From: an uncultured delta proteobacterium
GTDB taxonomy: Bacteria; Myxococcota_A; Polyangia; Polyangiales; Polyangiaceae
DNA length: 37,039 nucleotides
Direction of reading: 5' to 3'
NCBI GenBank assembly: GCA_903906315.1
Contig: CAIVJW010000289.1
Coordinates: 1-37,039 of the forward strand
The notes below the pieces were generated by a model that was given only the letters and a program-made list of their open reading frames with translations, was not told the DNA's origin and searched no databases. Position numbers and translations under genes: made by a program. Shown in pieces: positions 7,028-12,994 of the stretch. The number at the start of each line of letters is the position of its first letter. Within the stretch, counting starts at the first letter, position 1.

Positions 7028-7119
7028 GCAAGCCGGCGCCTCCGCGCCCCACGGCCTGCCGGGCGATCGAGGGGAGACCTCCGGGGAGCCCGGCGTAGTA
7101 CGAAGACCGCCGGTGTGAC

Positions 7120-7162
7120 GGCGTTACGGCGGATCGTTACGGCGTGACGCCAGGGTTACGCC
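7120..7162 (+). promoter_or_regulatory. Repeat cluster, candidate enhancer (activator) sites
   Basis: GTTACG occurs three times (7123, 7136, 7155) and GGCGTKACG twice (7120-7128 and 7141-7149). The second contains the perfect dyad GGCGT-G-ACGCC at 7141-7151. The cluster lies about 78-120 bp before the transcription start predicted from the sigma54-like element at 7214, the usual distance for sigma54 activator binding sites. Binding is inferred. Confidence 0.45.
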
Positions 7163-7213
7163 CGGCCGACCCGGGGCGACGCGCGTTGGGCTGAATTTCG
7201 GGGCCGACCGCGG

Positions 7214-7228
7214 TGGCACGGCGCCTGC
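7214..7228 (+). promoter_or_regulatory. Sigma54-type (-24/-12) promoter candidate
   Basis: TGGCACGGCGCCTGC matches the sigma54 consensus TGGCACG-N4-TTGC at every fixed position but one (C for the first T of TTGC). The GG and GC pairs have the required spacing. The expected transcription start is near 7240, 4 nt before the ATG at 7244. Confidence 0.55.
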
Positions 7229-7243
7229 GACTGCGGCCCGGCC

Positions 7244-7891
7244 ATGAGCCGTCCGACCGCCTGCACCGCGACCGAGCCCGAGACCATGGCCGCCGCCACC
7301 GCAGCCGAGCTGGCCCTGGTGCAGGAGCTGCTGACGAAGAGCGACCGAGCCTGGCGCGAATTCCACGCGCGGTACGGCCGCCTCGTGCACCGCTGCATCA
7401 CCAAGGTCACGTGCCGCTTCCGCCGCTTCGCCAGCGACGACGACCTCCGCGAGATCTACGCGACGTTCCTCGCCCAGCTGCTCGCGAACGACATGTACAA
7501 GCTGCGCATGTTCGCCCCGGAGCGCGGCGCGAACCTGACGTCGTGGATCGGCCGGCTCGCGACGAACTGCGCGCACGACTACGTCAGGTCCGGCCGCCGC
7601 CGCGCCCTCCGCGAGCGCGACTCGGTTGAGCAGAGCGACCTCGAGCGGTCGGCGGCGCCGTGGGTCGACGACGAGGTCGACTCCCGCCGCCGCCTGCGCG
7701 CGGTCGAGAGCCTCCTCGCCGATTTCCCGCCGAAAGACCGCGAGTTCGTCAATCTCTACTTCGGGGAGGGGCTGGACCCCGACGAAATCGCGGAGCGCAT
7801 GCGCATCAGCCGGAACACGGTGTACTCGAAGCGGCACAAGATCCAGAGTCGCCTCGAGGCGATCCTCTCCGAGGCGCGGCTCGCCGCCTGA
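7244..7891 (+). CDS. ECF-type RNA polymerase sigma factor
   Basis: 215 residues. Residues about 35-120 form sigma region 2 (WREFHARYGRLVHRC, then LTSWIGRLATNCAHDYVRSGRRR). Residues about 150-210 form region 4 with the helix-turn-helix LDPDEIAERMRISRNTVYSKR. There is no region 3 or region 1.1, and the length fits an ECF (group 4) factor directing core polymerase to a small regulon. ATG 7244 is used because it follows the predicted promoter; ATG 7286 (MAAATAAEL) is a possible shorter start. No anti-sigma gene is adjacent. A lipoprotein gene follows after 74 nt. The upstream sigma54-like element suggests this factor is itself turned on by an enhancer-dependent regulator. Confidence 0.85.
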   Translation: MSRPTACTATEPETMAAATAAELALVQELLTKSDRAWREFHARYGRLVHRCITKVTCRFRRFASDDDLREIYATFLAQLLANDMYKLRMFAPERGANLTSWIGRLATNCAHDYVRSGRRRALRERDSVEQSDLERSAAPWVDDEVDSRRRLRAVESLLADFPPKDREFVNLYFGEGLDPDEIAERMRISRNTVYSKRHKIQSRLEAILSEARLAA

Positions 7892-7950
7892 CCCGATCGC
7901 CTCCCGCCGCGTCGGTGCTCGTCGCAAGCGGAGCGCGCCTCCGCGTGTGG

Positions 7951-7956
7951 TAATAG
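7951..7956 (+). promoter_or_regulatory. Candidate -10 box (TAATAG) before a lipoprotein gene
   Basis: TAATAG, preceded by TGTGG, lies 9 nt before the ATG at 7966. The lipoprotein gene has no Shine-Dalgarno and may be transcribed separately from the sigma gene with almost no leader. Confidence 0.35.
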
Positions 7957-7965
7957 CGGGGGCGC

Positions 7966-8826
7966 ATGGATCGCCCCACTTCCCCAGCACCTCGCTCCCT
8001 CGTCCACCTCGCGTTCGCGGCCATCGCAGCGCTCGCAGCGGGCTGTAGCGGCACGGCCAGCGGCGGGGCCGGTGACGCGCCCGCGGATCCGCTCGCCGAC
8101 CCGTACGGCAGCGGCAAGAGGGTCCACGAGCTGGTCGGCCCCGCGACGTGGTCGAACCCGGACGACCGCGACAGCGTGTCGTGCAAGGTCCCGGCGAACG
8201 TCCAGGTGCACATCACCGGCGCGACCGTCATCGCCGTCGATCGCTTCGACGAGACGGGCGACGGCGCGCTGGGCAACATCTACGTCCAGGATTCGCTCGA
8301 CGACCGCCCGCCGTACTCGGGCGTGACGGTGTTCGCTCCGTCCTTCGCTCCGCCCGACCTGCACCTCTCGGCCGGCGACGTCGCCGATCTGATCGGCGAC
8401 TACCAGGAGTTCCTCGGCCCGGTGAGCGGCCCGTTCAGCTTCTGTCACACGCTCCCCGAGATGGGCGGCGCGATGACCTTCCGGTTCGACACGCGACCCG
8501 TCGCGCCGAAGACGATCCCGATCACCGACCTCCGCTCGTACGACACCGCGCGGAAGTGGCTCGGTTCGCTCATCCGAGTCGAGAACGTCACGCTCGTCAG
8601 CGACGCGACGCCCGACAGCAAGAAGCGCTGCAACGTGCCGATCGACGTCGGCGGCGGGATCAGCCAGGGCGACCAGCCGAAGATCTCGAACGAGCTGTTC
8701 GACCTCGACTGCGCGGCGGGGACGAAGCTCACCGCCGGCACCAAGCTGAAGAGCATCACCGGCGTGCTGACGTACTTCTACAGCTTCAATATTGCGCCGC
8801 GGTCGGCCGACGACGTCGTTTTGTGA
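7966..8826 (+). CDS. Secreted lipoprotein with OB-fold-like domain
   Basis: 286 residues. A signal peptide ending ALAAGC gives lipid attachment at Cys27. The mature part has a beta-rich pattern: VQVHITGATVIAVDRFDE, GNIYVQDS, YSGVTVFAP, LSAGDVADLIGDYQEF. This resembles OB-fold modules of the YhcR/DUF5689 sort, in which a strand giving 'Y-I-Q-D' precedes 'GD-x-V-x-x-x-G-x-x-x-E'. A second similar half seems to run to the C-terminus (LIRVENVTLVSD, TAGTKLKSITGVL). I see no catalytic residues. An ECF sigma gene precedes it and an M16-like lipoprotein gene follows, so an envelope role is likely. The domain call is by pattern only. Confidence 0.7.
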   Translation: MDRPTSPAPRSLVHLAFAAIAALAAGCSGTASGGAGDAPADPLADPYGSGKRVHELVGPATWSNPDDRDSVSCKVPANVQVHITGATVIAVDRFDETGDGALGNIYVQDSLDDRPPYSGVTVFAPSFAPPDLHLSAGDVADLIGDYQEFLGPVSGPFSFCHTLPEMGGAMTFRFDTRPVAPKTIPITDLRSYDTARKWLGSLIRVENVTLVSDATPDSKKRCNVPIDVGGGISQGDQPKISNELFDLDCAAGTKLTAGTKLKSITGVLTYFYSFNIAPRSADDVVL

Positions 8827-12202: not shown

Positions 12203-12319
12203 GTCTTCCTCGTCCCGCTACGCGCGCGCACGTTTCCCGCGACATCCGGAAGCCCGCCCCGGATGCTCTGGGCACCGCTCACACCCCCCGTAACCCGCCC
12301 CAACCGAACACACGACGAT

Positions 12320-12399: not shown

Positions 12400-12930
12400 T
12401 CAACCCACGGCCTGCTGTCGTGTCGCCCCCGCGCCCGCCGTCGCCGCCGCGATCAGCCGCTGCTCGATGCTCTCGAGCTTGGCGATGAGATCGTGAGCGA
12501 GCGCCTCGGCGTTGACGAGCTCGTTGGCGACGGCGCGGGCCGAGGGCTCACTTCGGCGCGTCTTGGCAGCGCCGCGGAGAGCCTCGAACACCTTGCCGAG
12601 CGTCCGCTCGAGCTCCTCGATGTCACCCCGAACGAACAAGTACTCGCGCTGAATTTCCTCGATCGTGTAGTCCTGGGCCATCATCTCCTTCACGCGCTGG
12701 ATCTGACGGACCACTCGAGACGGATACATGCCCTGAGAGCCCTGGTGCTTGCCCTTGCGCCCGACTCGGACGCTGCGGGGAAGGAGCCCGAGCTGGACCC
12801 ACTTACGAAGGGTCGCCTCACTGAACCTGATCTCGTGAGAAGCAAAGACGTCGAGGATCTCGTTCGAGGTGAGGCCCGCGCCTCTCTCTCTCTCGATACG
12901 GTCAAGCTCCTCTTCGGAGATCCTCAGCAA
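12400..12930 (-). CDS. MerR-family transcriptional regulator
   Basis: 176 residues from TTG 12930. An in-frame GTG at 12972 would be only about 16 nt from the predicted transcription start and has no Shine-Dalgarno, whereas TTG 12930 follows GGAGG by 5 nt. Residues about 20-90 form the winged helix: LTSNEILDVF, FSEATLRKWVQLGLLPRSVR, GMYPSRVVRQIQRVKEMM. The 'SEATLRKWVQLGLLP' helix-turn-helix and 'Y-P-x-x-x-V-x-x-I' wing are MerR features. A 70-residue C-terminal helical region (IEELERTLGKVFEAL) probably dimerises. There are no effector-binding cysteines or B12 domain. The target is unknown. It is divergent from the hydrolase-ABC operon starting at 13206, which it might control. Confidence 0.8.
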   Translation of the reverse strand: MLRISEEELDRIERERGAGLTSNEILDVFASHEIRFSEATLRKWVQLGLLPRSVRVGRKGKHQGSQGMYPSRVVRQIQRVKEMMAQDYTIEEIQREYLFVRGDIEELERTLGKVFEALRGAAKTRRSEPSARAVANELVNAEALAHDLIAKLESIEQRLIAAATAGAGATRQQAVG

Positions 12931-12935
12931 GACTT

Positions 12936-12940
12936 CCTCC
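12936..12940 (-). promoter_or_regulatory. Shine-Dalgarno deciding a TTG start
   Basis: GGAGG on the minus strand with a 5-nt gap to TTG 12930. It places the MerR start inside the longer open frame. Confidence 0.6.
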
Positions 12941-12994
12941 CACCCACCGGGCCACGACGACTGCCCGGCCACCGCGTCCCAACCGACGCGCGCG

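Follow-up and report, generated by a model that had tools for sequence, protein, structure and literature searches.

A conserved sigma54-type promoter with upstream repeats, and a probable FHA-domain activator, for an ECF sigma factor gene in the Polyangiales

An ECF sigma factor gene in the genome of an uncultured member of the Polyangiales is, with high probability, switched on by transcription from a dedicated sigma54 promoter, on which an enhancer-binding activator (bEBP), most likely an FHA-AAA-HTH protein, acts at a cluster of GTKACG repeats. The promoter, the repeat cluster, their conservation, and the co-occurrence of the bEBP are all supported by comparison across the order. The gene lies in a 37,039-nt stretch of DNA that was analysed as a whole (the window; Table 1).

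Results

The 215-residue product of the gene exceeded the curated cut-off of TIGR02937, a family-level model that spans regions 2 to 4, while Sigma70_r2 reached 19.6 bits against a Pfam cut-off of 24. No anti-sigma factor was recognised among those neighbours of the ECF gene that were tested. Immediately upstream, the element TGGCACGGCGCCTGC carries GG at 7215-7216 and GC at 7227-7228 in the spacing GG-N10-GC, and differs from TGGCACG-N4-TTGC by one mismatch, in agreement with the original prediction of a -24/-12 match one base short with correct GG/GC spacing. The accompanying caution, that such a match may arise by chance in G+C-rich DNA, was justified: because chance alone would supply 0.41 such matches in the 37-kb window, TGGCACGGCGCCTGC alone is not significant and by itself proves little.

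Conservation in relatives had been named beforehand as a refuting test, and we ran it on a sample of 183 genomes of the order, in which the source genome (8.79 Mb) was the sole representative of its genus; a scan of genome contigs for close relatives found none. ECF orthologues, 41-57% identical at the protein level, were present in 102 of the 183 genomes. The DNA of 80 orthologue loci was oriented and scanned for upstream elements, and 78 loci, the window included, had sufficient upstream DNA for the -24/-12 count. TGGCACGN5TGC was found upstream of the orthologues exactly in 48 of the 78 and with one mismatch in another 25 (73 in total), compared with 44 of 6,308 control windows (0.7%) of equal length from the same loci at no more than one mismatch. 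Each specified position was kept in at least 87% of the orthologue loci, L128 being one orthologue that lacked the element; two loci could not be read. The reading withstood the test: element and GTTACG repeats alike were kept across the order, and since the ECF proteins are only 41-57% identical, the persistence of these upstream features suggests that selection acts on the control region. We take this as strong comparative evidence that the gene is switched on through sigma54, from a control region that the whole group has maintained even though protein identity fell to about 45%. In the source genome, which encodes one copy of rpoN, the arrangement GTTACG-N25-55-TGGCACGN5TGC occurs once.

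Table 1. Features of the ECF locus and the candidate activator gene
Feature	Position	Strand	Basis
ECF sigma factor gene, 215 aa	7244-7891	+	TIGR02937, 62.7 bits (cut-off 42.9); Sigma70_r4_2 over cut-off
Predicted +1 and 4-nt leader (near-leaderless)	7240-7243	+	Inferred from -12 spacing
Sigma54 -24/-12 element TGGCACGGCGCCTGC	7214-7228	+	Sequence; at most 1 mismatch to TGGCACGN5TGC in 73/78 orthologues
Putative upstream activator region, five GTKACG units	7115-7160	+	Sequence; enriched at same place in orthologues
GTKACG unit 1, GTGACG	7115-7120	+	
GTKACG unit 2, GTTACG	7123-7128	+	
GTKACG unit 3, GTTACG	7136-7141	+	
GTKACG unit 4, GTGACG	7144-7149	+	
GTKACG unit 5, GTTACG	7155-7160	+	
TGAATTTCG, representing in the window the A+T-rich patch that separates the -24 element from the activator sites	7192-7200	+	Orthologue composition
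Lipoprotein-like gene; 286-aa product with a signal peptide (AAGCSG)	7966-8826	+	No Pfam family over cut-off
Sigma-70 region 4-only protein, 254 aa	11426-12190	-	Pfam Sigma70_r4 over cut-off
MerR-type HTH protein, adjoins sigma-region-4 gene	12400-12972	-	Identity of about 75% in the three Sorangium-clade relatives used for the sigma-region-4 protein
PQQ_2/BamB-like beta-propeller protein, 764 aa	3755-6049	+	Kept near ECF gene in 28/80 relatives
Candidate activator, FHA-AAA-HTH protein	G000:C256:16640-18028 (outside window)		Co-occurrence with ECF gene

The repeats upstream of the element proved more extensive than first noted: the three GTTACG copies (units 2, 3, and 5) are present as described, and two GTGACG units had been missed, giving a cluster of five GTKACG units, of which the first begins 99 bp and the last 59 bp ahead of the -24 T. 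The perfect dyad GGCGT-G-ACGCC that had also been noted is present at 7141-7151, but consists of the fourth GTKACG unit plus its flanks. Units 1 to 4 form two 14-bp GTKACGGCGTKACG pairs, at 7115-7128 and 7136-7149, with starts 21 bp apart. The 8.79-Mb genome contains exactly two copies of GTKACGGCGTKACG, both in this cluster, a count that expresses rarity and not significance, the pattern having been derived from this very site. Five GTKACG in 60 bp occurred in none of 200 first-order random 37-kb sequences (maximum three), and the next-densest place within the window has two units. Across the orthologues, GTTACG/CGTAAC was enriched 235-fold in the region 20-160 bp upstream of the element and peaked 60-120 bp ahead of the -24 T; at least one GTKACG lay upstream in 71 of 79 loci and at least three in 64 of 79, in both orientations and most commonly at spacings of 8, 10, 12, or 13 bp. 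Repeated activator-type sites were thus found about 80-150 bp before the start, as is looked for at a sigma54 promoter.

Between these sites and the -24 the orthologues share an A+T-rich patch, with an A+T content of 0.47-0.53 in the interval -40 to -11 relative to the element, versus about 0.29 at -160 to -141, and with TGAAAT and AAATCA enriched 44-50-fold. It was rejected as an IHF site, the IHF consensus being present in only two loci. Nor do we claim a wider GTTACG plus sigma54 regulon in the order, as matches away from the ECF gene were about as numerous as those of a backwards-pattern control. Near-identical GTTACG plus -24/-12 arrangements were seen at G178:C127:2597-2669 and G179:C42:10966-11038; the latter is on a different contig from the ECF gene, and a second target is possible there.

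The layout of the start is as noted, with a predicted +1 near 7240 and an ATG at 7244, and the claim that the transcript would be almost leaderless gained from the comparison. Measured from the predicted +1, the first in-frame ATG lay 1-4 nt away in 19 of 79 loci; the distance was exactly 2 nt in 12 of these and 4 nt in the window. A second class of 56 loci had leaders of 10-84 nt, mostly with a Shine-Dalgarno-like sequence, and no locus had a leader of 5-9 nt, so that the two classes are sharply separate. On a quick ECF tree the leader state changed at least seven times. The ECF gene has a second in-frame ATG at 7286, and translation from there would give a 46-nt leader that is not near-leaderless. 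This start is consistent with similarity between orthologues that often begins only at about residue 20-25, and with the lack of a Shine-Dalgarno ahead of 7244. However, no clear Shine-Dalgarno precedes 7286 either, most of the longer-leader class does have such a sequence, and the 19 in-frame ATGs within 1-4 nt of the predicted +1, with none at 5-9 nt, argue for the upstream codon; we therefore regard the downstream start as unlikely. Near-leaderless starts at this promoter look real and recurrent, although the window does have its second ATG. Leaderless mRNAs are already known elsewhere; S. meliloti, for one, has 171 (PMC3616915).

Sigma54 requires a bEBP, and the source genome encodes about 36. 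A scan of the 80 loci for Walker A plus GAFTGA motifs found none less than about 5 kb from the ECF gene. The bEBPs of five small ECF-bearing genomes were listed, and a shortlist was drawn from reciprocal best hits in all five, which comprised four bEBPs of the source genome; one of the four, L183, also had a reciprocal best hit in an ECF-minus genome. The other three shortlisted bEBPs were then searched across all 183 genomes. Two controls, L187 and L193, were near-universal in the order and were rejected as the activator. For the third, the FHA-AAA-HTH protein, hits with an E-value under 1e-100 occurred in 87 of the 102 genomes that have the ECF gene and in 12 of the 81 that do not (87/15/12/69, odds ratio 33), with the contig-split hits in G128 and G153 scored as present; the corresponding counts at the genus level were 46/5/7/25. 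Moreover, in four genera some members miss both the FHA-bEBP and the ECF gene and the rest hold both.

The FHA, Sigma54_activat (202.9 bits), and lid domains were confirmed in this protein, which has an HTH-like C-terminal end and the loop GAFSGA, in place of which several orthologues have GAFTGA. In a tree, the copies of Sorangium (g47), G050/G051, and G165 fell in paralogous clades; among the 12 ECF-minus genomes with a hit, those of G050, G051, and G165 are thereby paralogues, and several others are incomplete assemblies. True orthologues carry RMQ[VI]HRW in the HTH, and the sampled paralogues differ at M, with the ECF-minus G081 as the sole sampled misfit: its bEBP groups with a paralogous clade, yet has RMQVHRW.

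The ECF promoters of Sorangium and of a third family (f3), which were counted as without a true FHA-bEBP orthologue, keep the -24/-12 element and have two or more GTKACG units in 0 of 9 cases, versus a GTKACG cluster in 66 of 70 promoters of the remaining genomes, where orthologue presence was taken from the E-value and not in every case from sequence; the joint absence of FHA-bEBP and GTKACG from ECF-bearing genomes represents only two independent clades. The dedicated FHA-bEBP thus very probably activates the ECF promoter, and its FHA domain suggests phosphothreonine input from Ser/Thr kinases.

That some other bEBP recognises the GTKACG cluster of a real sigma54 promoter we consider unlikely. 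In its favour, the shortlist was limited to bEBPs with reciprocal best hits in all five small genomes, only three of the roughly 36 bEBPs in the genome were followed across the order, and one more, L188, was found in four of the five. Against it, of the bEBPs tested only the FHA-bEBP follows the presence of both the ECF gene and the GTKACG cluster; the recognition helix of this protein is kept in the sampled genomes that have the cluster. A reading in which the cluster binds a repressor or another non-bEBP regulator, the bEBP acting elsewhere or without specific DNA binding, is very improbable: direct repeats do serve several regulator families, but the GTKACG units lie about 40-130 bp upstream with almost none between the -24 and the start, and both their multiplicity and their loss together with the bEBP fit an upstream activator sequence. 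A chance -24/-12 look-alike in G+C-rich DNA beside a random repeat, for which the expectation in the window alone might speak, is refuted by the conservation in orthologues and the motif enrichment, and has virtually no probability.

Outside the order, ECF orthologues of the same class are about 38-44% identical, and four of them (L348, L351, L352, and L355) have a -24/-12 element with one mismatch and lack GTKACG clusters. From this distribution the core promoter appears to be older than the GTKACG activator site. By eye, the same four promoters contain other repeat-like pieces (TGGTGG, ACC), as if another activator were used, and those of f3 contain GTGAAC repeats; three Sorangium-clade promoters (L052-L054) have a common GTGAACCCTCGTTAACAGC in place of GTKACG units.

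Among the neighbouring genes, the lipoprotein-like gene starts 74 bp after the ECF gene, and 37 of 80 relatives likewise have it downstream in the same orientation. A TGTGGTAAT-like -10 element lies within 7936-7965, shortly ahead of its start, and is common to many relatives; given this nearby element, the lipoprotein gene may have a very short leader too. Of an ECF-type promoter there, only the -10-like TGTGGTA was common, and no shared -35 was seen. The sigma-region-4 protein has a Cys-rich stretch and a long acidic tail, and is 70-78% identical in three Sorangium-clade relatives, where the spacing between its gene and the ECF gene is similar. A minus-strand GTTACG that had been pointed out upstream of its gene is present at 12289-12294, but as a single copy its membership in the repeat system is unsupported. 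About three GTTACG are expected by chance in the window, and this copy was not accepted as a further site. Upstream of the same gene a GTTACG, likewise alone, also occurs in two of the three relatives, whose genomes are without a true bEBP orthologue.

Discussion

The cascade originally predicted, from bEBP through sigma54 to the ECF factor, draws support from the conserved promoter and repeats, the presence of rpoN, and the co-occurring bEBP. RNA polymerase with sigma54 would wait at the -24/-12 element until the bEBP, bound to the five GTKACG units, which begin 59-99 bp upstream, reaches it by looping, possibly with help from the A+T-rich patch, and hydrolyses ATP to open the promoter; these first steps are proposed on the grounds of established sigma54 biology and conservation. 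The transcript would begin at about 7240, with translation initiating on an ATG that coincides with the 5′ end or lies very close to it, Ser/Thr kinases would supply a phosphothreonine signal as the input of the bEBP, and the ECF protein would then drive a putative regulon of its own.

To our knowledge, sigma54-to-ECF cascades have been documented for very few systems (hrpL and rpoE P2), and we found no publication on the present sigma54-ECF module among open papers, nor a published FHA-bEBP with this ECF target or a GTKACG site in the open literature searched. The wiring logic is already known from HrpRS-sigma54-hrpL, and the parts differ here. The hrpL gene of Pseudomonas syringae encodes a transcriptionally regulated ECF factor (ECF32) without an anti-sigma factor, and as proposed for the present case its sigma54 promoter is controlled by bEBPs and preceded by activator sites (PMC5263251; PMC8999054), the comparison being one of wiring. 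In contrast to the pair HrpR/HrpS, a single FHA-domain bEBP is proposed here, encoded elsewhere in the genome; the hrpL promoter is bent by IHF, whereas the IHF consensus was almost never seen in our loci; and HrpL targets type III secretion. The P2 promoter of E. coli rpoE (as cited in PMC8103513) is likewise a sigma54 promoter of an ECF gene driven by a bEBP, QseF. However, rpoE has several promoters, of which P2 is one, an anti-sigma factor restrains RpoE as well, and QseF is a two-component response regulator whereas our candidate is an FHA-domain bEBP. With FHA-domain bEBPs the candidate shares the FHA and sigma54-activator AAA domains.

A fuller evolutionary reading would combine several elements: a phosphothreonine-reading bEBP dedicated to one promoter, carrying Ser/Thr-kinase input via sigma54 into an ECF factor; a core promoter older than the activator site; an activator exchanged more than once, seeing that relatives in other families and orders combine the -24/-12 with different upstream sequences; and an mRNA that switched several times between leaderless and led forms. 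We give this combination an even chance. If it is true, three signalling layers would be joined. Sequence alone served to predict the cascade for an entire bacterial order, with a likely activator and its DNA site named, and natural promoters that have the core promoter and are without the activator are available for comparison. The site specificity of bEBPs, the exchange of enhancers, and leaderless sigma54 transcripts would thereby become directly testable.
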